From assembly GCF_000423005.1 (NCBI RefSeq), contig NZ_KE383968.1, positions 62,001 through 126,000 of the forward strand: a stretch of DNA of 64,000 nucleotides, in the 5' to 3' direction. This DNA comes from Gelidibacter mesophilus DSM 14095 (GTDB lineage: Bacteria > Bacteroidota > Bacteroidia > Flavobacteriales > Flavobacteriaceae). The notes under the pieces were generated by a model. It saw nothing but the letters and a program-made list of their open reading frames with translations, was not told the DNA's origin and did no database searches. Shown in pieces: positions 48,245 through 62,417 of this stretch; positions within the stretch are counted from its first letter, which is position 1; each line of letters opens with the position of its first letter. The translations under genes were made by a program, and so were the position numbers.

Positions 48245-48314
48245 CCTTCAGTCTCCAAACGTGCAACAAGAACTCTCAATTTACATGATGGCGGACATTT
48301 AGAACCGCTTACGA

Positions 48315-49013
48315 CTATAGAATATAAAAAATCAGTCCAAGTCGAATCGTATTCATATCAAGGGACTGTCCATCAAGTTTTGCTGAATCTTTAAAAATGG
48401 AGTTTAACCCATAATACACATTAAAATTCCATGTGGAATACCCTGCACTTAAGGTGAGACCATATTGTAATTTATTAAAATCTTCAATACCGCCAAGTTT
48501 GATTGCATCAATATTGCTCTTGAGTTTGGAGGAGTTATAAAAAACGTAACCAATATTCAACCCTGTATAAACACGCCAAAACTTATAATCTCTAGCTGTA
48601 GAGGTACGCCATCTATATTGCAGAGGAACTTCAACTAAATAAGTTGTAAACTTATTCCTTTTGATCGTTATTTCACTTTCATCAATAATTTGATAGGTAT
48701 AATTTTGGTCTGAATCTTGGTTGATGAGCATATTTTGATTGTAAGAATTTATAGAAACTCCTAGCCCTACTCCAACGGCCTTATTTCTACGCACATTGAT
48801 GGGCATATCCCTGATGACCCCAAAATGAATGCCACTTGAGAATCCGCTCTGTTTGATCTCCTTAGGCTTATTACCCAATAAATCATAGGTTAGTGAAAAA
48901 TAAAATTGATCTTCCCGATACTTATGGTCCACAAAGGTGGTATCCATAGGTTGTTGTGCAAACAACACTGAAGTAATACAAGAGAACCAGACGATAAACA
49001 AAAATGTTTTCAT
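48315..49013 (-). CDS. PorT-like/outer-membrane beta-barrel protein
   Basis: This protein of about 232 residues has a signal peptide (MKTFLFIVWFSCITSVLFAQQ) and about eight beta strands. It ends TIRLGLIFYIL. The spacing of aromatic-Gly strands (GIHFGVIRDMPINVRRNKAVGVGLGVSINSY) is typical of the PorT-like barrels common in Bacteroidetes. I choose the ATG at 49011-49013, since a TATATTTG -7 box sits exactly four bases upstream of it and excludes the longer frame start at 49058. A role in secretion or porin activity cannot be assigned. Confidence 0.75.
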   Translation of the reverse strand: MKTFLFIVWFSCITSVLFAQQPMDTTFVDHKYREDQFYFSLTYDLLGNKPKEIKQSGFSSGIHFGVIRDMPINVRRNKAVGVGLGVSINSYNQNMLINQDSDQNYTYQIIDESEITIKRNKFTTYLVEVPLQYRWRTSTARDYKFWRVYTGLNIGYVFYNSSKLKSNIDAIKLGGIEDFNKLQYGLTLSAGYSTWNFNVYYGLNSIFKDSAKLDGQSLDMNTIRLGLIFYIL

Positions 49014-49017
49014 CTTG

Positions 49018-49025
49018 CAAATATA
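49018..49025 (-). promoter_or_regulatory. -7 box four bases before the PorT-like ATG
   Basis: On the minus strand TATATTTG is followed by CAAG and then ATG. The transcript would start at or next to the start codon. Confidence 0.55.
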
Positions 49026-49057
49026 ATTGATAATGGTGCGACTTTGAATATTGACCA

Positions 49058-49090
49058 TAAAAAAAGCATCCCATTTTACAAGGATGCTTT
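49058..49090 (-). terminator. Intrinsic terminator of the ExbB/ExbD operon
   Basis: AAAGCATCC (49063-49071) pairs with GGATGCTTT (49082-49090). On the minus strand a T run follows. It separates exbD from the PorT-like gene. Confidence 0.88.
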
Positions 49091-49111
49091 ATAGACTATT
49101 TAACTAATAAA

Positions 49112-49597
49112 CTATTTCTTCACATTTCCAGAAATATCACCTTTTTTGGTGGTATAGTTTATTTTTAATGCATTTTCTTTTCTAAGTTCTTGCTTCACGT
49201 CACTTACCAGTCCCATGTTAGCTTTTTCATCCACTTTAAGGGCAACCGTTAAAAAAGGAACTAATTCCTCTCTTTTTGAGGCTCTCTCTGCGGCAATAAA
49301 AGATTTAATATCTGCTAATTCTGCAAACTTGTCATTCAGTTGGATTCGCGATTCATTACCATATTTACTTTGAAAAGCCTCTTGGGGTTTTCCAATATAG
49401 ATATACATGATCAAATCTTTTTTATCGAGTTTCTCAACCTGATCAGCAAATGGTAATTTGTTTTCAATCTTCAATGTCGTCTCACGCATTGTAGTTGCCA
49501 CCATAAAAAAGAACAATAGCATAAATACAATGTCAGGTAATGACGCTGTTGATATTGCCGGTAAATCTCCTGACTTCTTTTTATTAAATTTGGCCAT
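49112..49597 (-). CDS. ExbD/TolR-type biopolymer transport protein (second copy)
   Basis: This 161-residue protein has one N-terminal transmembrane helix (PDIVFMLLFFFMVATT) carrying the conserved aspartate of ExbD/TolR, followed by a periplasmic domain. It works with the ExbB-type channel encoded upstream in the same operon to convert the proton gradient into motion for TonB-like partners. It lies 20 bases after the other ExbD gene. No TonB or TonB-dependent receptor gene is in the window. Confidence 0.92.
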   Translation of the reverse strand: MAKFNKKKSGDLPAISTASLPDIVFMLLFFFMVATTMRETTLKIENKLPFADQVEKLDKKDLIMYIYIGKPQEAFQSKYGNESRIQLNDKFAELADIKSFIAAERASKREELVPFLTVALKVDEKANMGLVSDVKQELRKENALKINYTTKKGDISGNVKK

Positions 49598-49617
49598 ATT
49601 GATGTTTTTCTAAATTA

Positions 49618-50223
49618 TTATTGAACTTCTGACAGTTTCTGAGGATATTCAATTTTGATCTTCTCGATTTTCTCTTTAAGATTTTCTTTGTTTCCTACCC
49701 AATTGACATCGCTATAGTTGGCTTCCATTTCCTTTAAAGTTTTACCGTAAAGATCCATAGCTCTTCTATCTCTCAACTGATTGTATGCCGCTACCAATTC
49801 ATTCTGAACAGAGATGTAAGTACCATACTTGGTCTCTCTCTCATTTTTCAATGAAATGATGGCCTTATCAGGATGGTCAGATGACGCCGGATCCTTTTTA
49901 CCATTACAGTAATCACATTTATTACCTTGGCTGTCAACCCCACCGCCATTATCCAAAAACTCAACGGCTGCCTTTCTTAAATCTTTAAGTTCCATTAACT
50001 CATCCTCAACCATAAGCTGATCTTTTCCGTTAATAAGTACAGTAAAGATATTCTTCTCTCTAATGATAGGTGGTTCTACCTTTTCATCGTCTATTGGAGG
50101 TAATCTTCTGTTTAAACCTGTATCCGTTTCAATGGTAGTTGTTACCAAGAAAAAGATAAGAAGTAAGAATGCAATATCAGCCATGGATCCTGCATTAACT
50201 TCGGGTGCTGATCTTTTTGCCAT
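49618..50223 (-). CDS. ExbD-type protein with a cysteine-containing insertion
   Basis: This 201-residue protein has the ExbD helix and aspartate (GSMADIAFLLLIFFLVTTTI), then a periplasmic domain longer than usual. An insertion near residues 100-120 contains CDYC within GNKCDYCNGKKDPASSDHP, a possible disulfide or metal site. The C-terminal third is helical and charged. It shares the operon with ExbB, a small membrane protein and the second ExbD. The insertion is the main difference from its paralogue. Confidence 0.88.
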   Translation of the reverse strand: MAKRSAPEVNAGSMADIAFLLLIFFLVTTTIETDTGLNRRLPPIDDEKVEPPIIREKNIFTVLINGKDQLMVEDELMELKDLRKAAVEFLDNGGGVDSQGNKCDYCNGKKDPASSDHPDKAIISLKNERETKYGTYISVQNELVAAYNQLRDRRAMDLYGKTLKEMEANYSDVNWVGNKENLKEKIEKIKIEYPQKLSEVQ

Positions 50224-50225
50224 AA

Positions 50226-50678
50226 TTACTTAGTTATTTTTTTGATTCCTGATAATAACATTGCTACTGCTGCACCTACGATTAGAATATAAAATGCAAC
50301 TAAACCTGCACCTACCATGTGCGCCTCACCTTCTGTAGCAGGGGCTCCATTATAGAGATAATCCCCAGCATCAGAACCGCTAGATGCCACATAGGATATA
50401 ACTAATACAGCTGCAAAGGCTCCTACCCCAATTAACGTACTTTTCAAAGATCCTGTATTCGTAAACAAGTTTTGCAATACGAAAATGAGAACAAGAAGTA
50501 TGGTCAATCCAAAGATAAAGTAAGTTACATAAAGCATTGGATCAAGGATGGCACTGTCGCCATCCGCAGCCGCCGATTGAATTGCGGTATCACCTTTAGA
50601 GATAACCATCACTAAAAAGATAATGCCTGCAAGACCCAAGAGCGCTGCTACTATTTTTAATATTTTGTGTAAATTCAT
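50226..50678 (-). CDS. Small polytopic membrane protein of the ExbB/ExbD operon
   Basis: This 150-residue protein has four hydrophobic helices (IVAALLGLAGIIFLVMVIS; a segment around MLYVTYFIFGLTILLVLIFVL; TLIGVGAFAAVLVISYVASS; GAGLVAFYILIVGAAVAMLLSGI). No named domain is recognised. It sits between the ExbB gene (22 bases) and the first ExbD gene (2 bases), which implies a structural or accessory role in the same complex. Confidence 0.8.
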   Translation of the reverse strand: MNLHKILKIVAALLGLAGIIFLVMVISKGDTAIQSAAADGDSAILDPMLYVTYFIFGLTILLVLIFVLQNLFTNTGSLKSTLIGVGAFAAVLVISYVASSGSDAGDYLYNGAPATEGEAHMVGAGLVAFYILIVGAAVAMLLSGIKKITK

Positions 50679-50699
50679 AGTTTTCTTTAATTGATCGGT

Positions 50700-51482
50700 T
50701 TATCTTTTGTATCTCACGAGCATATCCATCAAAGTGATAGATGCATCTTCCATGTCATTTACAATACTATCAATCTTAGCGATGATGTAGTTGTAAAATA
50801 CTTGAAGAATAATAGCTACAATAAGACCAAAAACCGTTGTCAAAAGTGCTACTTTAATACCACCAGCAACAAGTGACGGTTGCATATCTCCAGCAGCCTC
50901 AATTTTATCAAAGGCCTGGATCATACCAATTACCGTACCCATAAACCCAAGCATTGGGGCTAAGGCGATAAACAATGAAATCCAAGATACATTTTTCTCT
51001 AATTGACCCATTTGAACACCACCATAAGCAATAACAGCTTTTTCAGCAGCATCTAAATCTTCATCAGCTCTATCTAAACCTTGGTAATAGATAGAAGCAA
51101 CAGGTCCTTTTGTATTTCTACAAACTTCCTTAGCAGCTTCAATACCACCAGATTGTAAAGCATCTTCTACATTTTGAACTAATTTCTTAGTGTTTGTAGT
51201 TGATAAATTTAAAAAGATAATTCTCTCAATGGCGATCGCTAGTCCTAAGATCAAACAAAGCAATACAATACCCATAAAGCCAGGGCCACCTTCAATAAAA
51301 CGTTTCTTTAATTCTTGATGAAACCCAAGTTCTTCTTCTCCAGCCTGAGCCGAAGTGTCATCTTGTGTTACTGTTGCAACAGTTGTAGTTGCCATTGATG
51401 CTGTAGCCGCATAGTTATTTGCACTTACAGTTCCGAAAGCCATGATTCCTGCGATGGCTAGGATAGAAAATAGTCTTTTCAT
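50700..51482 (-). CDS. exbB: ExbB/TolQ/MotA-type proton channel protein
   Basis: This protein of about 260 residues has three transmembrane helices of the ExbB family, including FMGIVLLCLILGLAIAIERI and the paired helices around SLFIALAPMLGFMGTVIGMIQAF and KVALLTTVFGLIVAIILQVF. An N-terminal extension looks like a cleavable signal peptide (MKRLFSILAIAGIMAFGTVSA) plus a Thr/Ala-rich linker. I choose the ATG at 51480-51482 on that basis. It forms the proton-driven stator with the two ExbD proteins. The gene order exbB - small membrane protein - exbD - exbD is read leftward. Confidence 0.93.
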   Translation of the reverse strand: MKRLFSILAIAGIMAFGTVSANNYAATASMATTTVATVTQDDTSAQAGEEELGFHQELKKRFIEGGPGFMGIVLLCLILGLAIAIERIIFLNLSTTNTKKLVQNVEDALQSGGIEAAKEVCRNTKGPVASIYYQGLDRADEDLDAAEKAVIAYGGVQMGQLEKNVSWISLFIALAPMLGFMGTVIGMIQAFDKIEAAGDMQPSLVAGGIKVALLTTVFGLIVAIILQVFYNYIIAKIDSIVNDMEDASITLMDMLVRYKR

Positions 51483-51609
51483 TGTTCTGATCTTAATTTT
51501 ATTAGTTAAAGTGTTAAAGATATAAAAAAATTGCAATTAAAAAATAAAAATACGGTAGAGTCTAAGAGATTTCCTGTTGACTTATATCTTTTAACTCACC
51601 ATGACATTA

Positions 51610-51675
51610 CAATTTAATTTGATTAAAAAGGGTTTTTCCCAATTAAAAGAAACCCTCATAATTCAAATTAAATTG
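51610..51675. repeat. 13-bp inverted repeat enclosing the tRNA-Ser terminator
   Basis: CAATTTAATTTGA (51610-51622) and TCAAATTAAATTG (51663-51675) are perfectly complementary and end one base from the tRNA 3' end. Between them an AGGGTTT/AAACCCT hairpin with a T run on the minus strand (51629-51656) acts as the likely tRNA terminator. Confidence 0.7.
51629..51656 (-). terminator. Terminator of tRNA-Ser
   Basis: AGGGTTT (51629-51635) pairs with AAACCCT (51650-51656). On the minus strand the hairpin is followed by TTTT. Confidence 0.7.
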
Positions 51676-51763
51676 CAGAGAGGAAGGGATTCGAACCCTC
51701 GATACCCTTTTGGAGTATACACGCTTTCCAGGCGTGCGCCTTCGACCGCTCGGCCACCTCTCT
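51676..51763 (-). tRNA. tRNA-Ser (anticodon GGA)
   Basis: An 88-nt class II tRNA on the minus strand. Acceptor arms AGAGAGG and CCTCTCT pair, and the anticodon loop reads CTGGAAA with anticodon GGA. A long variable arm (TATACTCCAAAAGGGTAT) is typical of serine tRNAs, and the T loop reads GTTCGAATC. The discriminator is G, and CCA is not encoded. Confidence 0.97.
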
Positions 51764-51835
51764 AAAACTTAAAGCTCAATTGCTTTGCCAAATAACGAAA
51801 AAAAATATTGGTGCAAAAAATTTTATACGTTAATT

Positions 51836-52867
51836 TTAAGACATTTCTCCTCTTAAAGAGGTTTCAAATATGGTTTTGAACGTTTTAGAGGAAATTTTTT
51901 CTCCCAACATATACATTAATTTTGTCACTGCAGCTTCCGTTGTGATGTCTTTTCCTGAAATTACACCTATATTTTTGAGTTGGGAGCTCGTTTCATACTG
52001 CCCCATAATGACACTTCCTCCCGAACATTGGGTCACATTGATGACCGGAATACCATTTTTTATAGTCTTTTTAAGAAGCTCAATAAACCAAGTATCAGTG
52101 GTTGTATTTCCTGCACCATAAGTTTCTAAAATTATACCTTTAATATGAGGGGAAGAAAACATACACTCCATTACGGGTTTTGAAATCCCTGGAAAAATTT
52201 TAATCAAGGCTATGTTATTTTCAAATTTTTTATGAACGACGAGCTTTTTGCGTGAATTTGGCTTGAATAGATGCTCTTTGGACACCTTTAAATGCACACC
52301 TGATTCCGCTAAATCGGGGTAATTCATGGATTCAAAGGCTTCAAAATGCTCTGCATTGAGTTTTGTTGTTCTATTGCCCCGATAAAGTTTATATTCAAAA
52401 TAAAGACCTACTTCCTTAATTACCGGCTTACCATGATAATGTAAGGACGCCATTTGGATGGAAGTGATTAGGTTTTCTTTAGCATCGGTGCGCAAATCGC
52501 CAATAGGCAATTGAGACCCTGTGAAGATGACCGGTTTTGTCAAATTTTCCAACATAAAACTCAAGGCTGACGCCGAATAACTCATCGTATCACTACCATG
52601 CAATACCACAAACCCATCAAAATTATCATAATTTTCCTCAATAATTTCAGCAATTTGAATCCAATATTGTGGATTCATATTAGAGGAGTCAATAGGAACT
52701 TCAAAAGAAATAGTCTGGATTTGGCAATCCAACAGCTTTAATTCTGGAATTTGCTTTAACAAGTTGCTAAAATCGAAAGCTTTTAAAGCACCCGTATCAG
52801 CATGCTTGATCATCCCAATGGTACCTCCAGTGTATATCAATAAGATGTTAAGTTTTGGAAAGGACAT
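51836..52867 (-). CDS. ansA: L-asparaginase, type I (cytoplasmic)
   Basis: This 343-residue amidohydrolase converts asparagine to aspartate and ammonia. The first catalytic threonine lies in IYTGGTIGMI and the second in FVVLHGSDTMSYSASAL, which includes the Asp of the triad. There is no signal peptide, which points to the cytoplasmic type I enzyme. The ATG lies two bases from the tatD stop, so the two genes form an operon. The C-terminal regulatory domain of E. coli AnsA-type enzymes appears present. Confidence 0.94.
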   Translation of the reverse strand: MSFPKLNILLIYTGGTIGMIKHADTGALKAFDFSNLLKQIPELKLLDCQIQTISFEVPIDSSNMNPQYWIQIAEIIEENYDNFDGFVVLHGSDTMSYSASALSFMLENLTKPVIFTGSQLPIGDLRTDAKENLITSIQMASLHYHGKPVIKEVGLYFEYKLYRGNRTTKLNAEHFEAFESMNYPDLAESGVHLKVSKEHLFKPNSRKKLVVHKKFENNIALIKIFPGISKPVMECMFSSPHIKGIILETYGAGNTTTDTWFIELLKKTIKNGIPVINVTQCSGGSVIMGQYETSSQLKNIGVISGKDITTEAAVTKLMYMLGEKISSKTFKTIFETSLRGEMS

Positions 52868-52869
52868 AG

Positions 52870-53637
52870 TTAGACTTTAAAAATAGCTTTAGAGTTTTCA
52901 GTTGTAATTTCGGCAATTTCTTGGTGAGATTGTCCGTAAAGCTCCGATAGCTTATCTAGTACTTTTACAATGTAAGCACTTTCATTCCGTTTCCCCCTAA
53001 ACGGTGCAGGCGCCAAATAGGGAGCATCCGTTTCCAAGACAATATGCTTTAAATCAATTTCATTCAAGAATTTATCAATTCCACCGTTTTTAAAAGTTAC
53101 CACGCCCCCAATGCCTAACTTCATATTGAATGAGATGGCACGTTTTGCCTGCTCTAAATTACCCGTAAAACAATGAAAAATACCAAACAACTCTTCTGAT
53201 TTCTCCGTTTCTAAAACTTCAAAGATTTCATCAAATGCCTCTCTACAATGAATTACAATAGGAAGTTGATAATGTTTTGCAAGCCTTATTTGATGTCTGA
53301 AAGCCTCTTTTTGAATTTCTAAAGTACTTTGGTCCCAGTATAAATCAACACCTATTTCTCCAATGGCCACAAATTTTCTTTCTGAAAGGAGCTTCTCAAC
53401 ATGCTTTAACTCTTCCTTATAGTTTTCTTTTACGGACGTAGGATGTAGGCCAGTCATCAAATAAACATAATCCGGGAAATCAGATTCCAATTGAAGCATG
53501 GCTTCAGTATAGGAGGAATCAATGGCAGGAATAAAAAAACGGGTGATATTAGCTTCAACAGCGCGTTCTATCATTGCTTTCCGGTCTTCATTAAAGGCCT
53601 CACTATATAAATGGGTATGGGTATCTGTTATAGTCAT
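52870..53637 (-). CDS. tatD: TatD-family metal-dependent DNase/hydrolase
   Basis: This 255-residue TIM-barrel metalloenzyme has ITDTHTHLY with the metal histidines, VAIGEIGVDLYWD with Glu, LPIVIHCREA and FGIFHCFTG with further His, and LETDAPYLAPAPFRGKRNE with the metal Asp. TatD proteins are 3'-5' exonucleases or DNA repair and degradation nucleases. The gene is upstream of ansA on the same strand. A TACTTTTG -7 box lies exactly four bases before the ATG, so its transcript is probably leaderless. Confidence 0.95.
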   Translation of the reverse strand: MTITDTHTHLYSEAFNEDRKAMIERAVEANITRFFIPAIDSSYTEAMLQLESDFPDYVYLMTGLHPTSVKENYKEELKHVEKLLSERKFVAIGEIGVDLYWDQSTLEIQKEAFRHQIRLAKHYQLPIVIHCREAFDEIFEVLETEKSEELFGIFHCFTGNLEQAKRAISFNMKLGIGGVVTFKNGGIDKFLNEIDLKHIVLETDAPYLAPAPFRGKRNESAYIVKVLDKLSELYGQSHQEIAEITTENSKAIFKV

Positions 53638-53641
53638 CGTG

Positions 53642-53649
53642 CAAAAGTA
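53642..53649 (-). promoter_or_regulatory. tatD -7 box, four bases before the ATG
   Basis: TACTTTTG on the minus strand, then CACG, then ATG. Confidence 0.55.
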
Positions 53650-53694
53650 TGAGTTCTTTTGTAAATAATCCTTATCAACGACTAGAGTCTTAAA

Positions 53695-53769
53695 ATGATA
53701 ACGCTTAAAATTATCAGTTTAATAATTCTCTTTCTTCTAAAGCTTTTAATCTTTTCGGAAGATTTATAA
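53695..53769 (+). CDS. Possible 24-residue hydrophobic micropeptide
   Basis: In the 340-base gap between tatD and the retropepsin gene, a 24-codon frame starts MITLKIISLIILFLLKLL, then runs IFSEDL to the stop. It would make one transmembrane helix flanked by polar ends. No clear promoter or conservation supports it, and short hydrophobic frames arise easily in AT-rich DNA, so this is a weak candidate. The rest of the gap shows only an ACCCTA/TAGGGT dyad at 53932-53959. Confidence 0.25.
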   Translation: MITLKIISLIILFLLKLLIFSEDL

Positions 53770-53977
53770 TACTAACACCAGAAACATCATTGCCACACTA
53801 TGACAGGTTTTGGCTAAAGAACTATATAAATTAAATTCATCCTTGATTCAAAAAAGTCATTCAACTTTGAAGTTCATTTTATTTTTAAACTTTCGAAGCA
53901 ATGGACTTTTTAGCAACTTCTTGGGATAGATACCCTAATAATTGTCCTATTTTTAGGGTTCAGAAAACAAACAGCTA

Positions 53978-54442
53978 ATGATTGGAAAAACAGATAAAAG
54001 CAGTGCCACGTTGAAGGACTTTCTTTTGGAGAAAGGATATATCAAAGTCAAACTTAAATTGACCAAAACAAATCATTTTGAAATTAAAGCGACCATAAAC
54101 GGTATTAAAGGCCTATTTATCTTAGACACAGGCGCTTCTAATTCATGCGTAGGTTTTGAAGGTGTTGAAACCTTTAAATTAACAGCAAAAGATTCTGAAG
54201 TCAAAGCTGCCGGAGCTGGAGCTACAGATATGCAAACCCAGATTTCCAAAAAAAACAAACTAAAGATAGGAAAATGGAAAAAAGATAAAGTAGCGTTAAT
54301 TCTTTTTAATTTATCACATGTAAATACCGCCCTTTTAAGCTACAATTCCGAGCCTGTGGATGGCATTATTGGGGCTGATATCTTGACAAAAGCAAAAGCC
54401 GTTATAGATTATGATAAAAACTATGTGTATTTAAAATTGTAA
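53978..54442 (+). CDS. Retropepsin-like aspartic protease-fold protein
   Basis: This 154-residue single-domain protein has the retropepsin active-site triad FILDTGASNS near residues 48-57, followed by beta strands and the late motif PVDGIIGADILTKAKAVIDY, which is the second hydrophobic-Gly motif of clan AA. Two copies would form an active dimer as in retroviral proteases. It has no signal peptide or membrane segment, so it acts in the cytoplasm. It is 62 bases upstream of the response regulator gene and in the same orientation, so the two may be co-transcribed. Confidence 0.85.
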   Translation: MIGKTDKSSATLKDFLLEKGYIKVKLKLTKTNHFEIKATINGIKGLFILDTGASNSCVGFEGVETFKLTAKDSEVKAAGAGATDMQTQISKKNKLKIGKWKKDKVALILFNLSHVNTALLSYNSEPVDGIIGADILTKAKAVIDYDKNYVYLKL

Positions 54443-54504
54443 TTCCAGCATTTTAAGATATAATAGCTATCTTTAAAACCCCTAAGAAACCTAATTAATA
54501 GCTC

Positions 54505-55131
54505 ATGCATGCCTCTATAATTATAGCCGACGATCATCCGCTTATCCTTAAAGGTCTCACCGATTTTTTAAACGAAAAAGAATATAATCTTGTGGGATCT
54601 GCTGTAAATGGCAAGGAAGCCTTTGAGCTGATTGCGTCTAAAAAACCGGACATTGCCATTCTAGATATACAAATGCCCTTTTTATCAGGTCTTGAAGTGG
54701 CAAGAAAATGTAGAGATCTAGAGCTGCCTACCAAAATCATCCTGATCACTTTTGAAAAAGACGAAACCATATATAAGGAGGCCAAGACCATAGGAATTTA
54801 TGGCTATGTTCTTAAAGAATTTGCCTTGGCTGAAATTGAAAACTGTATTGCTGCCGTCTTCAAAGGCAAATCCTATTTTAGTCCAGAGTTGATTGAGTTT
54901 TTAGAAATTGCTGAACCACCTGAAGAATGGGAATTGCTCACGCCTACTGAAAAGGAAATCTTAAAACTTATTGCTAAAAATAATACGGGTGTTGAAATAG
55001 GGCATATTCTTAATGTATCTCCTCGTACAGTTGAGAAACACAAAAGCAATATTATTAAAAAAATAGATCTCTCCCATAAACAAAACAGCTTGTTGATTTG
55101 GGTCAAGGAAAATCAAGATTGTTTTTTGTAA
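54505..55131 (+). CDS. NarL/LuxR-family response regulator
   Basis: This 208-residue two-domain transcription factor has an N-terminal receiver domain with acidic pocket DDH (residues 9-11), the phosphoacceptor Asp in DIAILDIQMP, the Thr in ILITFEKD and Lys in YVLKE. The C-terminal LuxR-type HTH reads LTPTEKEILKLIAKNN to SPRTVEKHKSNIIKKIDL. No histidine kinase is encoded nearby, so it is an orphan by position. Directly downstream lie three copies of a 20-bp palindrome overlapping promoter elements, two of which lead to small membrane peptides. A dimeric LuxR-type regulator could recognise such a palindrome, so autonomous control of this locus is an attractive but untested inference. Confidence 0.94.
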   Translation: MHASIIIADDHPLILKGLTDFLNEKEYNLVGSAVNGKEAFELIASKKPDIAILDIQMPFLSGLEVARKCRDLELPTKIILITFEKDETIYKEAKTIGIYGYVLKEFALAEIENCIAAVFKGKSYFSPELIEFLEIAEPPEEWELLTPTEKEILKLIAKNNTGVEIGHILNVSPRTVEKHKSNIIKKIDLSHKQNSLLIWVKENQDCFL

Positions 55132-55203
55132 TCTTCATAGAACACCTGAATATCAGAGCTCAATACCATTTAAAGAGCATATCCTCTATGCTCCCCAGTT
55201 AAA

Positions 55204-55265
55204 AATACGTAAAGTTACGTATTGTTTCGCGTGACTTAATTGACGATATTTACACTGCTATTAAT
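55204..55265 (+). promoter_or_regulatory. Palindrome-promoter module 1
   Basis: The perfect palindrome AATACGTAA-AG-TTACGTATT (55204-55223) overlaps TTG (55222-55224). After 20 nt comes GATATTTA (55245-55252), a relative of TAnnTTTG, and then TGCTATTAAT (55256-55265) where transcription probably starts. Spacing is identical in modules 2 and 3. Confidence 0.8.
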
Positions 55266-55282
55266 CAACAATCCAAGTATTT

Positions 55283-55310
55283 AGCTCTGGGTTAATAGTA
55301 ATCCAGAGCT
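55283..55310 (+). promoter_or_regulatory. Leader hairpin before micropeptide 1
   Basis: AGCTCTGG (55283-55290) pairs with CCAGAGCT (55303-55310). Inner G-U and TTA/TAA pairs extend this to about 12 bp around ATAG. It lies in the predicted leader, about 28 nt before the ATG, and is not followed by a T run, so it may affect translation or stability more than termination. Confidence 0.6.
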
Positions 55311-55338
55311 TTATACTTTGGATTTTAAAAAAATCACT

Positions 55339-55437
55339 ATGAAATCCAAAGTCGGTTTATTAAATACAATGTTTATAATTGTATTAATTTTGACCTCAAT
55401 TCTTATCATATCAATGAACATTCTTATTATCTGCTAG
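55339..55437 (+). CDS. Single-pass membrane micropeptide 1 (32 aa)
   Basis: A 32-codon frame with ATG at 55339 and TAG at 55435-55437. It begins with a basic stretch (MKSKVG), then one hydrophobic helix with core LILTSILIISMNIL and a C-terminal cysteine. It has its own promoter module, a leader of about 82 nt with a hairpin, and a strong terminator 23 bases after the stop. A second cassette with the same layout encodes a similar peptide (core LILSAVLIITANIL), and the helix positions align without gaps. Two similar copies with matched regulation make a real gene much more likely than chance. It probably inserts in the inner membrane; a regulatory, kinase-modulating or toxin-like role are alternatives I cannot choose between. 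Confidence 0.65.
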   Translation: MKSKVGLLNTMFIIVLILTSILIISMNILIIC

Positions 55438-55459
55438 TCAGCTTATTCCTTTAACAAGC

Positions 55460-55497
55460 AAAAAAGCGCCGTCTAAAACCCTAGATGGCGCTTTTTT
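55460..55497 (+). terminator. Terminator of micropeptide 1
   Basis: AAAAAGCGCCGTCTA pairs with TAGATGGCGCTTTTTT around AAACCC. The stem has a single G-U pair and a T run. Confidence 0.93.
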
Positions 55498-55526
55498 ATA
55501 GTATAAAACGGCCGTATTCATTGAAA

Positions 55527-55588
55527 AATACGTAAAGTTACGTATTGTATGACACCTCGTAATTTTGCATCTTTGTTATGCTATTAAT
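55527..55588 (+). promoter_or_regulatory. Palindrome-promoter module 2 (no long frame downstream)
   Basis: The palindrome (55527-55546) is identical to module 1. TTG is at 55545-55547, then CATCTTTG (55568-55575) and TGCTATTAAT (55579-55588), all at the same spacing. No ATG lies at the expected distance of about 82 nt. A 24-codon frame starting at 55578 (MLLILRGIIFKKNF...) begins at the predicted start site and would be leaderless. Confidence 0.7.
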
Positions 55589-55719
55589 TCTTAGGGGAAT
55601 TATTTTTAAGAAAAACTTTGGATCGTCAATGATTCAGGGTTTTTCTGTTTAGCATCATTTCTACACGCTTTTAGTTCGTTTTGAGCATTTTTTGAGCAAT
55701 TTATAGTCCTATAACGAAA

Positions 55720-55781
55720 TATACGTAAAGTTACGTATTGTTTGCCGTTACAATATTGCTGAAATTTACAGTGCTATAAAT
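55720..55781 (+). promoter_or_regulatory. Palindrome-promoter module 3
   Basis: ATACGTAA-AG-TTACGTAT (55721-55738) has one mismatch in the outer pair compared with modules 1 and 2. TTG overlaps its edge (55738-55740), GAAATTTA is at 55761-55768 and TGCTATAAAT at 55772-55781. Downstream bases are also strongly similar to module 1. Confidence 0.8.
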
Positions 55782-55853
55782 CACCATGCCAGTGTCGATA
55801 AATATGAAGTCTTTATAACGATATCCTATATCACTCTAATTTTTAAAACCCTT

Positions 55854-55964
55854 ATGAAAACCATGAAATGGAACTTCAAAAACAGCAATCAATTATTGAT
55901 CATCGGATTAATTTTAAGTGCTGTATTGATCATCACCGCTAATATTCTTGTAAATTTACCCTAG
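55854..55964 (+). CDS. Single-pass membrane micropeptide 2 (36 aa)
   Basis: A 36-codon frame from ATG 55854 to TAG 55962-55964. It has a basic/aromatic N-terminus (MKTMKWNFKN), then a hydrophobic helix with core LILSAVLIITANIL and a short polar end (VNLP). An in-frame ATG at 55863 (MKWNFKN...) is an alternative start. It is a paralogue of micropeptide 1: the segments NTMFIIVLIL and NQLLIIGLIL and the following Leu-Ile-Ile-x-x-Asn-Ile-Leu match. It is preceded by promoter module 3 and a leader of about 80 nt, and followed by an intrinsic terminator. The function is unknown. Confidence 0.65.
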   Translation: MKTMKWNFKNSNQLLIIGLILSAVLIITANILVNLP

Positions 55965-55980
55965 CTATCGAATTGTCACA

Positions 55981-56015
55981 AAAAAAAGCAACTTAACAAT
56001 GTAAGTTGCTTTTTT
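55981..56015. terminator. Bidirectional terminator between micropeptide 2 and sucB
   Basis: AGCAACTTA (55987-55995) pairs with TAAGTTGCT (56002-56010). It is flanked by an A run on the left and a T run on the right, so it can stop both convergent transcripts. Confidence 0.9.
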
Positions 56016-56036
56016 ATAATGTCATTACTCTCTTGA

Positions 56037-57320
56037 CTATAGCTCCAATGCTCTCTTAACGTCATTATCCATTAATAATTCTGTAGGGTTTTCTAAAGCT
56101 TCTTTAATCGCTACTAAAAAGCCGACACTTTCTTTTCCATCAATAATTCTGTGGTCATAAGAAACAGCTAAGTACATAATTGGTCTGATCTCAACATGAC
56201 CATCTATTGCTACAGGACGCTCCACAATATTATGCATTCCTAAAATTGCACTTTGTGGCGGATTGATAATTGGTGTAGATAACATACTTCCAAAAACACC
56301 TCCATTAGAAATGGTAAATGTTCCTCCGGTCATTTCATCTACAGTAATTTGTCCGTCACGTGCTCTAATAGCCAATCGTTTCACTTCAGATTCAACACCT
56401 CTAAAGGTTAAGTTCTCTGCATTTCTAATTACCGGAACCATTAAACCTTTCGGTCCAGACACCGCAATACTGATGTCACAAAAATCATAACTGATCATTT
56501 CCTGACCATCAATCATTGAATTTACTGCAGGATATTCCTTTAACGCTCTAACTGCAGCCAAGGTAAAGAAACTCATAAAGCCCAATCCAACGCCATGTTT
56601 ATTTTTGAAATCTTCTTTGTACTCTCCACGCAACTTGAAAATTGCGGACATATCCACCTCATTAAAGGTTGTTAGCATTGCCGTTTCGTTTTTGGCATTC
56701 ACCAATCGCTCTGCAACTTTACGTCTCAACATCGACAATCTTGAACGTGATTCTCCACGTCGTCCTCCAGTTGGTGTTCCCATTGAAGGCACTGCTTTTA
56801 CAGCATCATCTTTGGTAATTCGACCATCTTTTCCTGTGCCACTAACATCAGAAGCTGACATATTTTTTTCTGCCAATACTTTTTTAGCTGCAGGACTAGC
56901 GACTCCAGTGGCATATGTTTTTGAGGCAGGTTTTGGGGTGTCTTTCGAATCTTCCTTTGTAGGTGCTTCCTTTTGTTCCTTGGCAAGCTCTTTTTCAACA
57001 TTTTTATCGCCTGAGCCTTCATCGCCTTTGCTTTCAGAGGTCTTGCTGTCTGATGACTCTGAGCCGCTACCAGCTGGTTTCTCAGCAGCTGTATCAATTA
57101 AACATACCACTTCACCAACAGCGACAGCATCACCTTCTTCTGCTTTTAATGTAATAATTCCGCTTGCCTCCGCAGGAAGCTCTAAAGTGGCCTTGTCACT
57201 ATCTACTTCAGCAATAGCCTGATCTTTTTCTACATAATCGCCATCTGCAACTAACCATGCTGCAATTTCTACCTCTGTAATGGACTCTCCTGGTGAAGGA
57301 ACTTTCATTTCTAAAATCAT
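56037..57320 (-). CDS. sucB: Dihydrolipoyllysine succinyltransferase (2-oxoglutarate dehydrogenase E2)
   Basis: This 427-residue protein has an N-terminal lipoyl domain with the lipoylated lysine in [12 protein letters not shown] (K43). A charged Gly/Ser/Glu/Lys-rich linker follows (about residues 80-130), then a peripheral-subunit-binding domain ([30 protein letters not shown]) and the catalytic domain with [16 protein letters not shown]. It transfers the succinyl group to CoA in the TCA cycle. It lies downstream of sucA with 137 bases between. The E3 component is not in this window. Confidence 0.97.
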
Positions 57321-57363
57321 AGTTCTTATTGTTTTTGTAACCTTTTGGTTTGCGTTGTTGAAC

Positions 57364-57379
57364 TCCTACAAAGCAGGAA
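57364..57379. repeat. Small dyad in the sucA-sucB spacer
   Basis: TCCTACAAAGCAGGAA shows a short TCCT/AGGA dyad similar to the small CCTGC/GCAGG elements elsewhere. It is weak. Confidence 0.35.
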
Positions 57380-57457
57380 TTTTTATAATTTATTTCAATT
57401 TATCTTCTGTCGGAATTTTTAGCGACGTCATAGAACGTCCTAAGTATATCCCAGTTA

Positions 57458-60220
57458 CTATCTCTGATTGTTTTTTGTCTTATCAAAAACATAATCAATG
57501 ACTTCTTTATGACGACGTTTAGAACGTGTTGAACTTCCTGCTGCTGGCGCACCATAAGCGCGACGTGAAGCAATCCTAAATGATTTGGACTCCTCAAAAT
57601 GCATCATCAAAAAGCTGTAAGCTCCCATGTTACGAGGCTCTTCTTGTGCCCAAACCACATCATCAGCATGTTCGTATTTCTTTAAAATCTCTCGCATTCC
57701 TTTAGTTGGTAACGGAAACAGCTGTTCTATTCTTACCAAGGCAACATCGTCTCTCTGTTCATTTTCTCTTACCTCTAATAAATCATAATAAAATTTACCC
57801 GTTAAGAACACTAAGGTTTTAACTTTTTCGACCTTTGCTTTTTCATCATCTATAATTGTTTGAAAACTTCCGTTTGCAAATTCGTCCACCGACGATACAA
57901 CCAACGGATGACGCAACAAGCTTTTAGGTGTAAACACAATTAATGGTTTCCTAAAATTTGCTTTCATCTGCCTTCTTAACAAATGGTAAAAGTTTGCTGG
58001 TGTTGTACAGTCTGCAACGTACATATTATCACTCGCACATAATTGCAAATAACGCTCCATACGCGCTGAAGAATGCTCCGCACCTTGGCCCTCATAACCA
58101 TGAGGCAATAGCATGACCAATCCATTTTGAATTTTCCATTTATCTTCAGCTGCCGAAATATATTGATCGAGCATTATTTGGGCACCATTACTAAAATCTC
58201 CAAATTGAGCTTCCCAGATAGTTAGCGTTTTAGGACTTGCCATAGCATATCCATAGTCAAAACCAACAACACCATATTCTGAAAGCAATGAATTATAAAT
58301 ATAAAATTCTCCTTGCTTTTCATTGATGTGATTTAAAAGTATGATCTCTTCTTCGCTATCTTCAACCTTAACCACAGCGTGGCGATGTGAAAACGTACCA
58401 CGTTCAACATCTTGCCCTGACATTCTTACGTCATGCCCTTCTTCTAATAAAGTGCCATATGCCAAGTGCTCTGCCATTGCCCAATCCAATTTGTTTTCAT
58501 CAAACATGGTTTGTCTGGATTGAACAAGACGTTCTATTTTACGTATAAATTTTTTATCTTTTGGTAACGTTGAAATGACCTTAGCTATCCTAGCAAGCTT
58601 TTCTTCAGACACCGTCGTGTCCACCGTTTCCATCATTTTATTTTCATCGGCATGCTCATAACCAGTCCATTCTCCCTGCATAAAAGCTGTAATGATTGTT
58701 TTTTCTTCCTTGCGGGAATCTTCCAATTCTTCTTCTAAGGAAGCTTTATAGCTTTCTTCAAGATTTTTAACAAAGTCTTTATCAACGACACCCTCCTTTA
58801 TAAGCTTATCAGCATAAATGTCTCGTGGATTCTCATGCTTGGCAATGGCTTTATATAGTTTTGGTTGTGTAAATCTAGGTTCATCACCTTCATTATGTCC
58901 ATATTTACGATATCCTAAAAGATCTATAAACACGTCGCGTTTAAAGGTCATTCTAAAATCTAAGGCAAACAACATGGCATGAACAACCGCTTCAGCATCA
59001 TCCGCATTAACGTGCAACACAGGTGATAACGTTACTTTAGCAACATCCGTACAGTAGGTACTAGAACGTGCATCGAGATAGTTTGTGGTAAAACCAATCT
59101 GATTGTTGATCACAATGTGAATGGTTCCACTGGTTTTATAGCCATCCAAATTCACCATTTGAATCACCTCATAAACTAAACCTTGACCAGCAATTGCCGC
59201 ATCTCCATGAACGATGATAGGCAGAACTTGAGATGGGTTATCTGCGTATTTATCGTCTTGCTTTGCTCTTGCAATTCCTTCAACCACTGCACCTACAGTC
59301 TCTAAATGTGACGGGTTGGGTGCGATATTTAAGTTTATTTTTTTACCTTCTTTAGATTCTCTATCACTCGTCCAGCCTAAGTGATATTTGACGTCACCGT
59401 CAAAAATTTCCTGTTCGTAATCCTTCCCATCAAATTCACTGAAGATATCCTTAGCCGATTTTCCGAAAATATTAATTAACGTACTTAAACGACCACGATG
59501 TGCCATTCCCATGACAAATTCTTTAACACCAACTTCCGCAGCACTTTCAATAAGCGCATCAAGAGCAGGAATTAAAGATTCCCCTCCCTCAAGTGAAAAA
59601 CGTTTTTGCCCAACATATTTTGTATGTAAAAAACTTTCAAAAGAAACCGCTTGATTAAGTTTGTTAAGGATATGCTTTTTTTCATCAGCAGAAAAACTAG
59701 GTTGATTGTCACTGACATTCAGTTTTTTCTGAATCCATTCTATTTCTTTAGGGCTTCTGATATACATGTACTCCAACCCAATGGAGGAACAATAGATCTT
59801 TTCGAGATGATTGATAATGCTCTCTAGACTTTGTGGTCCAATTCCTAAAATTTCTCCGGCAGAAAAAACTGTTTTAAGATCTTCTTTAAGAAGTCCGAAG
59901 TTCTCAATAGCTAAGGTTGGCTCGTATTTTCGTCGTTCCCTAACAGGATTGGTTTTTGTAAATAAATGACCTCTATTTCTATAGCCATCAATCAATCGCA
60001 CCACATTGAATTCCTTTTGCATATGCGCAGGAATTTCTGGTGAAATACAGACCGCCCCATCATCATAGACTGGGTCACTGTTTTCAGAGCCGAAGTCAAA
60101 ACCTTGGAAGAAAGCCCTCCAACTTGGTTCAACTGTATCCGGATTATGTAAATATTGGTCGTATAATTCAGCAAAGTGAGCTGAGTGAGCAGCGTTTAAA
60201 AAGGAATATTTATCCATCAT
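57458..60220 (-). CDS. sucA: 2-oxoglutarate dehydrogenase E1 component
   Basis: This 920-residue thiamine-diphosphate enzyme decarboxylates 2-oxoglutarate and passes the succinyl group to E2. The N-terminal helix (YSFLNAAHSAHFAELYDQYLHNPDTVEPSWRAFF) is the E2-binding segment of the family. The ThDP site includes GMAHRGRLSTLINIF and HGDAAIAGQGLVYE, and the C-terminal half has LPHGYEGQGAEHSSARMERYLQL and FTPKSLLRHP. The length is normal. It starts the sucAB operon and is divergent from a small beta-barrel protein gene. Together with sucB it provides the succinyl-CoA step. Confidence 0.97.
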   Translation of the reverse strand: MMDKYSFLNAAHSAHFAELYDQYLHNPDTVEPSWRAFFQGFDFGSENSDPVYDDGAVCISPEIPAHMQKEFNVVRLIDGYRNRGHLFTKTNPVRERRKYEPTLAIENFGLLKEDLKTVFSAGEILGIGPQSLESIINHLEKIYCSSIGLEYMYIRSPKEIEWIQKKLNVSDNQPSFSADEKKHILNKLNQAVSFESFLHTKYVGQKRFSLEGGESLIPALDALIESAAEVGVKEFVMGMAHRGRLSTLINIFGKSAKDIFSEFDGKDYEQEIFDGDVKYHLGWTSDRESKEGKKINLNIAPNPSHLETVGAVVEGIARAKQDDKYADNPSQVLPIIVHGDAAIAGQGLVYEVIQMVNLDGYKTSGTIHIVINNQIGFTTNYLDARSSTYCTDVAKVTLSPVLHVNADDAEAVVHAMLFALDFRMTFKRDVFIDLLGYRKYGHNEGDEPRFTQPKLYKAIAKHENPRDIYADKLIKEGVVDKDFVKNLEESYKASLEEELEDSRKEEKTIITAFMQGEWTGYEHADENKMMETVDTTVSEEKLARIAKVISTLPKDKKFIRKIERLVQSRQTMFDENKLDWAMAEHLAYGTLLEEGHDVRMSGQDVERGTFSHRHAVVKVEDSEEEIILLNHINEKQGEFYIYNSLLSEYGVVGFDYGYAMASPKTLTIWEAQFGDFSNGAQIMLDQYISAAEDKWKIQNGLVMLLPHGYEGQGAEHSSARMERYLQLCASDNMYVADCTTPANFYHLLRRQMKANFRKPLIVFTPKSLLRHPLVVSSVDEFANGSFQTIIDDEKAKVEKVKTLVFLTGKFYYDLLEVRENEQRDDVALVRIEQLFPLPTKGMREILKKYEHADDVVWAQEEPRNMGAYSFLMMHFEESKSFRIASRRAYGAPAAGSSTRSKRRHKEVIDYVFDKTKNNQR

Positions 60221-60342
60221 TTTTTTGTAAAACGTTCAGATGTTTTCAAATTTTAGTCAAAAATACAACTTTTACTAAAATAAGAATTGCTTTTAGTATA
60301 TTTATATGATATAACTGTATCAATAAACAAAATACTAATTTT

Positions 60343-60876
60343 ATGAGATTCCTATTAAATAAAACCTTAATAGTTTGCTTTCTAAGCATATCATTTTCAT
60401 TCAGCGCAGTGGCGCAATTGGCATCGTCACAAACATCGCCTGATTTTTGGAGTCATGTTCGCTTTGGTGGAGGAATTGGTTTGAGTTTTGGAGACGGTTT
60501 TTTTAGTGGAACTCTTGCACCAAGTGCTATTTATGAATTTAACCCTCAATTTGCTTTAGGCGTTGGGATCAATGGCACTTATAACACGCAAAAAGACATC
60601 TATAAATCAACGGTTATAGGTGGGAGTTTGATAGGATTGTTCAATCCGATTCCGGAAATTCAATTATCAGCAGAATTTGAAGAACTTAATGTCAGCCGTA
60701 AATGGGATGACAGATTAAGGTACGCCAATGAAAACTATTGGTATCCCGCTCTCTTTTTAGGCGCCGGTTTTAGAACTCATAATGTGGCTATTGGCGTGAG
60801 ATACGATGTATTATACGATAAGAAAAAAAGCATTTACGCCGATGCTTGGGCACCTTTTATCAGAGTTTATTTCTAG
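60343..60876 (+). CDS. Small outer-membrane beta-barrel protein next to sucA
   Basis: This 177-residue protein has a signal peptide (MRFLLNKTLIVCFLSISFSFSAVAQ), then glycine/aromatic beta strands (GGGIGLSFGDGFFSGTLAPSAIYEF), ending FIRVYF. Its relatives have sometimes been named alpha-ketoglutarate decarboxylase because of this position, but nothing in the sequence suggests ThDP binding. An outer-membrane or porin-like protein is far more likely. Confidence 0.75.
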   Translation: MRFLLNKTLIVCFLSISFSFSAVAQLASSQTSPDFWSHVRFGGGIGLSFGDGFFSGTLAPSAIYEFNPQFALGVGINGTYNTQKDIYKSTVIGGSLIGLFNPIPEIQLSAEFEELNVSRKWDDRLRYANENYWYPALFLGAGFRTHNVAIGVRYDVLYDKKKSIYADAWAPFIRVYF

Positions 60877-60974
60877 CAACCTTTCTATCATAGTTGTTAA
60901 GAGCATTCATCCAAAAAGTGGGTGTTGATTCCACAACGTACACCCAAAATAAAACTCTATTCCTGGAGATGGTT

Positions 60975-61328
60975 TCAAGAAGAAAATGTACTCCTGTAAT
61001 ACACCTTTTGCCATTCCCGTTTTAAGATTAGAAACGTGACGTTTTCTGACAACAATAAAACATCATTACCATCCATTTCCTTAATTTTCGTCTCAGAAAC
61101 ATCAATAATGTAGAGCAGGTTAAGATAGTCCATGAATTTTTCCTGAATAAGTCGAAATATTTCTTGGTGCAACAGTAATTTCAAACTGGTTGGCAGGATT
61201 TCATCATCAAACTCCAAATTAACGTTGGCCAATGCCAAATCTTTATTGAGTTGATGAATGAGTTTTGTATAAAGATTCAGATGCTGAGCTTCATTCACTA
61301 AATCGTCAAAAGTTTTTAGATCTTTCAT
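60975..61328 (-). CDS. Conserved small helical protein, function unknown
   Basis: This 117-residue protein has no signal peptide or membrane segment. It is mostly charged amphipathic helices (TFDDLVNEAQHLNLYTKLIHQLNKDLALANVNL and LKLLLHQEIFRLIQEKFMDYLNLLYIIDVSE). It lies six bases after the polyprenyl synthase gene on the same strand, so it should be co-expressed. I do not recognise a family. Confidence 0.7.
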   Translation of the reverse strand: MKDLKTFDDLVNEAQHLNLYTKLIHQLNKDLALANVNLEFDDEILPTSLKLLLHQEIFRLIQEKFMDYLNLLYIIDVSETKIKEMDGNDVLLLSENVTFLILKREWQKVYYRSTFSS

Positions 61329-61334
61329 TGCACT

Positions 61335-62309
61335 TTATACCCTTCTATTCATTAAATCATGGCCAAATTCTTTAAGAGCGTCTTTTTTGTTTTCAGGAAT
61401 AGAAAGTTCATCAAGCACCTTAAAGGCCAGTTTTGTATAATTTTCAATTTCGTTACGAGTGGTATCCGCCGCCCCACTAGATTGAAAGATCTGTCTTACG
61501 GTTTCAATTTTATCGGAAGCATCCGTTGGATTGATTCCAAACAAATGTTGTAGTTGTAACTTGTCATCTTCATCGGAAAACTCAACTGCTTTGATGTATA
61601 AAAATGTTTTCTTGTTTTCAATAATATCGCCACCTACTTGCTTTCCAAAGGTTTCCGGATCTCCAAAAGCGTCCAAATAATCATCCTGAAGTTGAAAGGC
61701 TATGCCCAACAATCTTCCAAATTCATAAATATGATCTTGATCCTCTTTTGCTGCTGATGCTACAATAGCCCCCATTTTCATGGCTGCACCCACTAATACC
61801 GCAGTTTTGAATTCGATCATTTTGAGATATTCCTCCACCTGAACATCATCCCTAGTTTCAAAATCCATATCATATTGCTGTCCTTCACATACTTGTAACG
61901 CAGTTTTACTGAAGAGTTTTGCTAAATCCTGAAAAGTAGAGGCCTCATACTGTTCAAAAAGCTGATAGGCCATAATAAGCATAGCATCTCCTGACAAAAT
62001 TCCTGTATTGATATCCCATTTTTCGTGCACAGTTGGTTTTCCGCGACGCAATGGCGCGGCATCCATAATATCATCATGGATTAAAGAGAAATTATGAAAA
62101 ATCTCAACACTTAAAGCGGCATTGAGTGCATGCTCATAATCGTCGTTGAAAGCTTCAGCAGTCATTAAGGTTAAAATGGGTCTTAGACGTTTACCTCCCA
62201 AGCCCAAAATATATAATATCGGATCGTATAGTGAGTTAGGTTCTTTTGATTGCACTTTCTCCTTTAGATAAGCGATAAATGCACGGTGATAAAATGGAAT
62301 ATTTTGCAT
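61335..62309 (-). CDS. Polyprenyl (isoprenyl) diphosphate synthase
   Basis: This 324-residue trans-prenyltransferase has the first aspartate-rich motif in LIHDDIMDAAPLRRGKPTVHEKW and the second in LQDDYLDAFGD. GGKRLRPIL lies upstream of the first. It elongates allylic diphosphates with isopentenyl diphosphate, for quinone side chains, geranylgeranyl diphosphate or longer products. It could supply substrate to the GGGP synthase at 3.7-4.5 kb. The product length is not readable by eye. The -7 box sits four bases before the ATG, with a TTG 21 bases further upstream. It is divergent from the TetR gene. Confidence 0.94.
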   Translation of the reverse strand: MQNIPFYHRAFIAYLKEKVQSKEPNSLYDPILYILGLGGKRLRPILTLMTAEAFNDDYEHALNAALSVEIFHNFSLIHDDIMDAAPLRRGKPTVHEKWDINTGILSGDAMLIMAYQLFEQYEASTFQDLAKLFSKTALQVCEGQQYDMDFETRDDVQVEEYLKMIEFKTAVLVGAAMKMGAIVASAAKEDQDHIYEFGRLLGIAFQLQDDYLDAFGDPETFGKQVGGDIIENKKTFLYIKAVEFSDEDDKLQLQHLFGINPTDASDKIETVRQIFQSSGAADTTRNEIENYTKLAFKVLDELSIPENKKDALKEFGHDLMNRRV

Positions 62310-62313
62310 GAAG

Positions 62314-62345
62314 CAAAAATAAAGGAAATCGGCTCAGAAAAGCAA
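62314..62345 (-). promoter_or_regulatory. Polyprenyl synthase promoter, leaderless type
   Basis: On the minus strand TTG (62343-62345), 21 nt, TATTTTTG (62314-62321), then CTTC and ATG. This is a full match to TTG-N17-23-TAnnTTTG with four bases to the start codon. Confidence 0.7.
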
Positions 62346-62400
62346 TATTAAAATTATATTAAACTTTGGAAACTTTATTTGTTTTTAAAGTTTCCTATCG

Positions 62401-62408
62401 TATTTTTG
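62401..62408 (+). promoter_or_regulatory. -7 box of the TetR-TolC operon
   Basis: TATTTTTG lies nine bases before the ATG at 62418. It is inside the longer frame beginning at 62379, so it supports the internal start. Confidence 0.55.
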
Positions 62409-62417
62409 CGCCCTATT

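Follow-up and report, generated by a model that had tools for sequence, protein, structure and literature searches.

The stretch of DNA analysed here, hereafter called the window, comprises 64,000 nucleotides (nt) of the genome of Gelidibacter mesophilus DSM 14095 (contig NZ_KE383968.1, positions 62,001 to 126,000 of the forward strand). It contains a gene for an orphan response regulator, which we term RR1, and, directly downstream, three modules in which a palindrome is joined to a predicted promoter. These modules lead to a predicted small RNA and to two predicted small membrane peptides (Table 1). RR1 is a member of the NarL/FixJ family, having a receiver domain with the conserved aspartate and a C-terminal GerE helix-turn-helix (HTH) domain. 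The original prediction, which had been made from the letters of the window alone, was thus correct in placing a LuxR-type response regulator upstream of the palindromes. Residues D9, D10, D54, T82 and K104 are invariant among 15 orthologues. The further claim that no kinase lies nearby also stands, insofar as none was recognised by eye in the list of open reading frames (ORFs) from 48000 to 64000, a list without a domain scan.

Table 1. Positions of the features of the RR1 locus, counted from the first base of the window.
Feature	Position	Strand	Details
RR1, orphan NarL/FixJ (LuxR-type) response regulator, 208 amino acids	54505..55131	+	Pfam Response_reg 4.5e-25, GerE 1.3e-12
Operator 1 (candidate)	55204..55223	.	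AATACGTA-AAGT-TACGTATT; arms conserved in 140 modules
Promoter 1 (predicted)	55222..55252	+	TTG 55222, box GATATTTA 55245-55252, predicted start 55257
Weak small RNA copy, module 1	55256..55315	+	R1 E 0.017 at G000:C2:117256-117315; terminator-like hairpin 55283-55310
Small membrane peptide 1 (predicted), 32 amino acids	55339..55437	+	MKSKVGLLNTMFIIVLILTSILIISMNILIIC; family pattern in orthologous loci
Intrinsic terminator after peptide 1	55466..55497	+	by eye in sequence
Operator 2 (candidate)	55527..55546	.	AATACGTA-AAGT-TACGTATT
Promoter 2 (predicted)	55545..55575	+	TTG 55545, box CATCTTTG 55568-55575, predicted start 55580
Conserved small RNA (model R1), module 2	55579..55646	+	5' hairpin 55585-55602 with UAGG loop, terminator 55609-55646; R1 E 1.2e-9, covariation, fold
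Operator 3 (candidate)	55720..55739	.	TATACGTA-AAGT-TACGTATT
Promoter 3 (predicted)	55738..55768	+	TTG 55738, box GAAATTTA 55761-55768, predicted start 55773
Small membrane peptide 2 (predicted), 36 amino acids	55854..55964	+	MKTMKWNFKNSNQLLIIGLILSAVLIITANILVNLP; peptides script-found in 71/76 loci
Intrinsic terminator after peptide 2	55988..56015	+	by eye in sequence

Three candidate operator-promoter modules

Each module begins with a 20-bp palindrome, the last of which has one outer mismatch, as had been described. When up to three mismatches are allowed, the window holds exactly three matches, against 0.06 expected from 100 shuffles. Further, TACGTAANNTTACGTA, with at most one mismatch, has three occurrences in the whole genome of 4,430,943 bases (4.43 Mb), all at this locus. 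Because the only three sites of the genome lie directly downstream of RR1, the palindromes are supported as operators of this regulator. It could be supposed that they are instead a dispersed repeat element with no regulatory function, and one genome of the survey (G157) does have three exact palindrome sites away from RR1. The confinement of the own-genome sites to one intergenic region and a promoter spacing that is conserved across genera speak so clearly against a dispersed repeat that we give the idea almost no credence.

The spacing within the modules is identical, as the original prediction held. TGCTATWAAT begins 52 bases past each palindrome start (at 55256, 55579 and 55772), and an 8-base box begins 41 bases past it; the distance from the TTG element, which is overlapped by the right arm of the palindrome, to this box is 20 nt in all three modules. 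In an excerpt of PMC9723704, the sigma-A box TAnnTTTG of Flavobacterium psychrophilum is placed at -12 to -5. Putting this rule on the box at offsets 41-48 predicts the start of transcription (+1) at offset 53, and the centre of the palindrome would then be found at about -43. The predicted start finds independent support in related genomes: in 14 of 28 single-module loci, the ATG of a peptide located by script falls exactly at the predicted +1, i.e. the mRNA would be leaderless. Among all 140 modules of the survey detailed below, an ATG is present at offset 53 in 25.

In most of these modules, the box is unlike TAnnTTTG at both ends (G at position 41 in 64%, A at position 48 in 86%), as would be expected of a promoter that depends on an activator. 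Together with an operator at about -43 and parallel operator copies, this feature suggests coordinated activation. RR1 might also act as a repressor, with the palindrome covering the -33 region and the outputs rising once the signal stops; the overlap between the right arm and the TTG element is compatible with such an arrangement. We consider repression improbable, as an activator would better account for the off-consensus box and for a palindrome centre that is fixed near -43.

Conservation of the layout

The RR1 orthologues from the relatives searched (L011-L024) are 47-76% identical over A1. When the own locus (L010) is included, all 15 of these loci carry the operator, with one to three modules each. 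A scan of named genomes, which comprised the best 80 of 484 loci encoding an RR1 relative and drew partly on the same genomes, found the palindrome in 76 of the 80 loci, for a total of 140 modules. The matcher tolerated 2-3 arm mismatches at most, and the conservation of the arms is therefore partly a product of selection. For the distance between the arms, values of 5, 6 and 7 were permitted, and it is 6 in 140/140 modules. TTT[AG] is found at offset 45 in 137 of the 140. A search of related genomes for the palindrome at a set distance from the box had been proposed with the original prediction; its outcome supports the claim that an operator is fused to a promoter, for the spacing is retained in many genera. 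In multi-module loci, the four central bases of the palindrome are identical within the locus in 33 of 48 cases, a pattern suggestive of duplication or homogenisation within each lineage. The locus L096 has a divergent palindrome, TCTACGTGTTAACACGTAGA, that was overlooked by the matcher.

From the stop codon of RR1 to the first palindrome, the median distance is 2.5 bases (range -9 to 62; 76 loci). This proximity bears on the question of which protein reads the palindromes, as does the absence of such a site elsewhere in the own genome. Both argue against another regulator as the main binder, for example a paralogue that is paired with a kinase of the TPR-HisKA_3 type. A paralogue of this kind is encoded in the own genome (L120, G000:C1:667618-668229); it is 46% identical to RR1 and adjoins a TPR kinase with HisKA_3 and HATPase_c domains. 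In genome G014 (L124), a relative with 40% identity lies beside a TPR-HisKA_3/HATPase_c kinase and has a palindrome of similar sequence and TGCTATTAAT after it. Given also that one genome (G040) has operators without RR1, a different principal binder deserves mention; we deem it rather unlikely.

In L120-L124, RR1 paralogues (40-46% identical) adjoin a TPR protein, and these loci are a candidate source of the kinase of RR1.

A predicted small RNA

Module 2 encodes a predicted small RNA of ~67 nt. Its 5' domain, which is near-invariant and contains an AGGG hairpin, is followed by an intrinsic terminator. The motif TGCTATTAATT(AGTT)CTTAGGG(A/G), again followed by a terminator, is present in the middle module of Gelidibacter and in the first module of many Winogradskyella and others. 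An alignment of 36 sequences, all of them selected for this motif, shows hardly any variation in the 5' part and compensatory changes in 10/10 predicted terminator pairs. Pairing is retained in 98.9% of 359 terminator cells. Changes on both sides were counted in 49 cells, compared with a shuffle mean of 11.0, and none of 500 shuffles, which do not preserve relatedness, was as high on any measure. Terminator structures slid by 1 to 3 columns score far lower. All 36 full-length minimum-energy folds, which are predictions, show a short hairpin in the 5' part whose loop contains or adjoins AGGG; this hairpin is not part of the RNAalifold consensus of the 36 sequences. Some Winogradskyella RNAs have an extra hairpin-like stretch with AAGGG.

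The small RNA is not made by every module. By less strict criteria, 107 of 158 modules had a terminator-like hairpin, which was preceded by AGGG in 68 of the 107. In the own genome, searched at E 0.03 with a model of the RNA (R1), modules 2 and 1 were the only matches. Rfam 15 returned only tRNA for the window, nothing over cut-off (gathering and relaxed) for nine related loci, and only tRNAs for five more.

Predicted small membrane peptides

The predicted products of modules 1 and 3 are peptides of 32 and 36 amino acids, respectively. Peptides of 32-47 amino acids with one hydrophobic helix were found by script in 71 of the 76 loci; the other five had none. The script demanded a high hydropathy score, and the size and the helix thus partly reflect selection. 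The recurring ending of the peptide, which places an asparagine in the helix (..I..N..VNFF and variants), does not stem from this selection. One of the 71 peptides, that of L080, is unlike the rest. Pfam yielded nothing above its cut-offs for the two peptides of the window.

The same RNA behind other regulators

Model R1 was used to search 120 genomes of the family. There are matches in 72 of them at E<=0.05, many of the weak ones likely due to chance, and in 37 at E<=1e-5. At the level of the order, 196 genomes were searched and five had a match at E<=1e-4. These five are members of the same family; the families of the misses are listed in part. We classed the 99 matches at E<=1e-3 by their surroundings. 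The upstream gene encodes RR1 in 62 cases (R1 was built solely from RR1 loci, and matches at such loci arise partly by construction), a PAS-LuxR protein in 12, a 221-residue protein in five, and none of these in 20.

The PAS-LuxR class lies mostly beside folC- and murF-like genes, as judged by eye. Of three members scanned, all have the GerE domain, and PAS_3 is above cut-off in two and just below it in one. Inverted repeats resembling AATACTCAAATTGAGTATT are centred at -41.5 in 11/12 of these loci; for the RR1 class, the same automatic measure, whose zero is the first base of the match, puts the repeat centre at -42.0 in 54/62. The 221-residue class (L160 twice, L174, L185 and L196) has the palindrome TACGG-N4-CCGTA, the centre of which scatters from -37 to -45.5. 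In L160 and L174, the protein adjoins a TPR protein with a HATPase_c match below cut-off. The receiver domain passes the cut-off in the orthologue L219 alone and falls short of it in L174. The two proteins are thus read only tentatively as a two-component pair. In genome G013, which belongs to the genus of the window, an orthologue of the 221-residue protein is followed by TTGCGGAAAACCGTAA, after which comes a diverged form of the RNA that contains TTAGGG and a terminator. No PAS-LuxR protein was found at E<=1e-20 in 13 genomes, nine of them of this genus, a set without a positive control.

Between the classes, the identity of the 5' part of the RNA is 0.89-0.93, a figure biased upward by the picking of sequences with R1 and an AGGG anchor; that of the 3' part, at 0.58-0.61, comes close to the 0.54-0.56 obtained with shuffled sequences. 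In 12 genomes with two regulator classes, the 5' domains are nearly alike and the terminators are unlike, in a comparison that took the anchor-bearing matches (38/62 for RR1, 11/12 for PAS-LuxR, 4/5 for the 221-residue protein).

The positions of the hairpins raise the possibility of a cis-acting attenuator. Transcripts would usually stop at the hairpin terminator and read through to the peptide on a signal, and there would be no free trans-acting RNA. Indeed, a hairpin is situated between the promoter and the peptide ORF in several loci (L019 module 3, L022) and in module 1 of the window. Three observations argue otherwise and lead us to view attenuation as unlikely. The middle module of Gelidibacter has its own promoter and terminator, after which comes another promoter. 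The 5' domain is more conserved than the terminator. Finally, a small hydrophobic ORF is found within 350 bases 3' of the RNA in 0/12 PAS-LuxR and 0/5 221-residue cases.

Discussion

We propose, at a probability of roughly two in three, that RR1 activates parallel promoters for a trans-acting RNA and two membrane peptides, and that the same RNA serves elsewhere as an output shared with other regulators. In this proposal, an unlinked kinase would phosphorylate RR1. The phosphorylated protein would bind the palindromes ~43 bp 5' of the start, overlapping the -33 element, and would thereby switch on three weak promoters in parallel. The products would be the ~67-nt RNA (from module 2, with a degenerate copy in module 1) and single-helix membrane peptides of 32-36 amino acids (from modules 1 and 3). 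The RNA probably acts through its near-invariant 5' domain, i.e. a short leader and a hairpin exposing AGGG, and would end in the intrinsic terminator; it could pair with mRNAs or bind a protein. Small membrane proteins elsewhere feed back on sensors, and the peptides could possibly do so here. In other Flavobacteriaceae, the RNA is found behind other regulators that have their own palindrome at about the same place, as though several signals converged on one output. The sequences themselves show the operators with their spacing and conservation, the peptides, the covarying terminator and the recurrence of the RNA beside other regulators; that RR1 binds, that it activates instead of repressing, that the modules are transcribed, that the RNA acts in trans and that the peptides have a role are inferences. 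The original prediction recognised the threefold operator-promoter beside an orphan LuxR-type regulator; it missed the outputs, namely the small RNA and the two peptides, as well as the recurrence of the RNA behind other regulators and palindromes.

We also entertain a broader notion, to which we give somewhat less than even odds: in Flavobacteriaceae, several sensory regulators that are unrelated to one another may all have one small RNA as their output, each with its own copy of the RNA beside it. These would include RR1, the PAS-LuxR protein, the putative TPR-kinase/receiver pair and perhaps a TPR-LytTR membrane regulator. The first three each have their own palindrome near -43, and the 5' RNA domain is nearly identical among them. 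The RNA would then be a CsrA-free counterpart of the Gac/Rsm RNAs that acts via the loop of the AGGG hairpin.

Several observations weigh against the proposal. The coupling of RR1 to the operator is not strict. At L082, L095 and L103, RR1 is present and the 420-500 bases examined contain no operator. Conversely, the complete genome G040 has no RR1 orthologue (the best match is 31% identical), and the interval from its aspartyl protease gene to its odhB-like gene holds two operators, two peptides and the RNA. G048, which is 82% complete, has an operator and the RNA at the aspartyl protease/odhB-like site without RR1. In G040 and G048, the operator is read by a different regulator, or else RR1 was lost only recently. 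An exact-site search of 299 genomes placed four of nine sites away from RR1. Regarding targets in trans, the perfect complement of the loop, the 11-nt CCCCTAAGAAT, is present in the own genome only as the RNA itself; it was found in 9/9 genomes of the genus, with extra places in the others. Pairing of the RNA with peptide leaders of the same locus is at the level of chance (mean z -0.16; 2/48 below -2). No HTH family was detected in the 221-residue protein, whose binding to DNA is assumed. Lastly, 20 of the 99 R1 matches do not have any of the three regulators nearby. Among them, the RR1 operator is present in three (L150, L180 and the L168 second copy, which is ~8.5 kb from RR1), L183 follows a LytTR regulator, four stronger matches (L164, L166, L170 and L179) have no regulator, and 12 have E above 5e-5.

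Some elements of the proposed system have precedents. GacA is a LuxR-type response regulator with an upstream palindrome and sibling RNAs that have G-rich hairpin loops; Gac/Rsm RNAs carry many GGA hairpins. The operators of CiaR are direct repeats. The tandem modules with their common palindrome amount to several related RNA genes with a shared operator, as in the class of sibling small RNAs. Sibling RNAs under response regulators are already known, among them the csRNAs, Qrr and Csr/Rsm (PMC4211561, in excerpt). The same excerpt describes the CiaR csRNAs of Streptococcus, in which a response regulator likewise drives several sibling small RNAs, some of them in tandem, and the GacA-RsmX/Y/Z and CsrB siblings, which are also under a response regulator. 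In Vibrio, copies of CsrB differ in their regulation and so integrate several signals, according to an excerpt of PMC6262261. The present locus differs from that of CiaR in its LuxR-type regulator, its palindromes, the membrane peptides in the same regulon and the other regulators beside the same RNA. In contrast to Gac/Rsm, the RNA has ~67 nt and one AGGG hairpin, and no CsrA was found in the 20 relatives searched.

Two protein partners were considered and set aside. The first was CsrA, to be titrated as in Gac/Rsm: PF02599 was found in 0/20 relatives, and the control genomes were positive in 3/14 (Escherichia coli, Bacillus subtilis and Thermotoga maritima). The second, prompted by the UAGGG motif, was an RRM protein of the RbpB type: PF00076 is present in 2/20 relatives and in 0/9 of this genus.

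Closer in phylogeny are FopS and GibS of Bacteroides, which are associated with RbpB. An excerpt of PMC11697453 describes them as paralogous Bacteroidota RNAs of 65-70 nt with a conserved 5' part and a terminator, features shared with the present RNA; the latter differs in having no Rfam match and in its paired regulator genes. The FopS family gave no match at E up to 5 in nine loci or up to 0.5 in five, where the deposition of FopS in Rfam is taken from that excerpt and its presence in this release is unconfirmed. Rfp18 of F. psychrophilum is likewise a conserved small RNA of Flavobacteriaceae. It has at least three stem-loops, as described in the excerpt of PMC9723704, and would differ from the present RNA in this respect. 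In the open-access literature, no description of the present RNA or layout was found. Apparently new are the RNA family, its association with small membrane peptides and its recurrence beside several regulator families with their own operators.

Small RNAs have been little explored in Flavobacteriaceae; a deletion mutant was found in the literature for Rfp18 (excerpt of PMC9723704). A compact RNA family that is absent from Rfam and tied to identifiable regulators offers ready operator-regulator pairs for experiment. These bacteria do not use Shine-Dalgarno sequences, as stated in an excerpt of PMC6847099. The family could therefore provide a way to ask how small RNAs work without Shine-Dalgarno pairing and, in this genus, without a CsrA or RRM protein having been found. 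If several sensors do feed one RNA, the set of its targets becomes a direct question.

Additional observations

In L183, the gene directly 5' of the RNA copy (bases 2115-3659) encodes a TPR-LytTR protein that has a hydrophobic stretch and possibly represents a fourth kind of regulator. In L160, the TPR-protein/221-residue pair occurs twice, ~7 kb apart, with an RNA after each; there are further ACGG palindromes and another RNA-like stretch containing AGGG. L150 (bases 961-1760), from a complete genome, lacks RR1 at its usual place and has kept two operators, two peptides and the small RNA. Two of the loci of G157 (L005 and L007) contain intergenic copies of TATACGTAAAGTTACGTATA, two in all, whose flanks resemble each other; these copies are not near RR1 and lack the promoter spacing. 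Directly 5' of RR1, the window has a retropepsin-like aspartyl protease gene (PF13650, 53978-54442), and the same gene order is found in L008, L168, L176 and L178.
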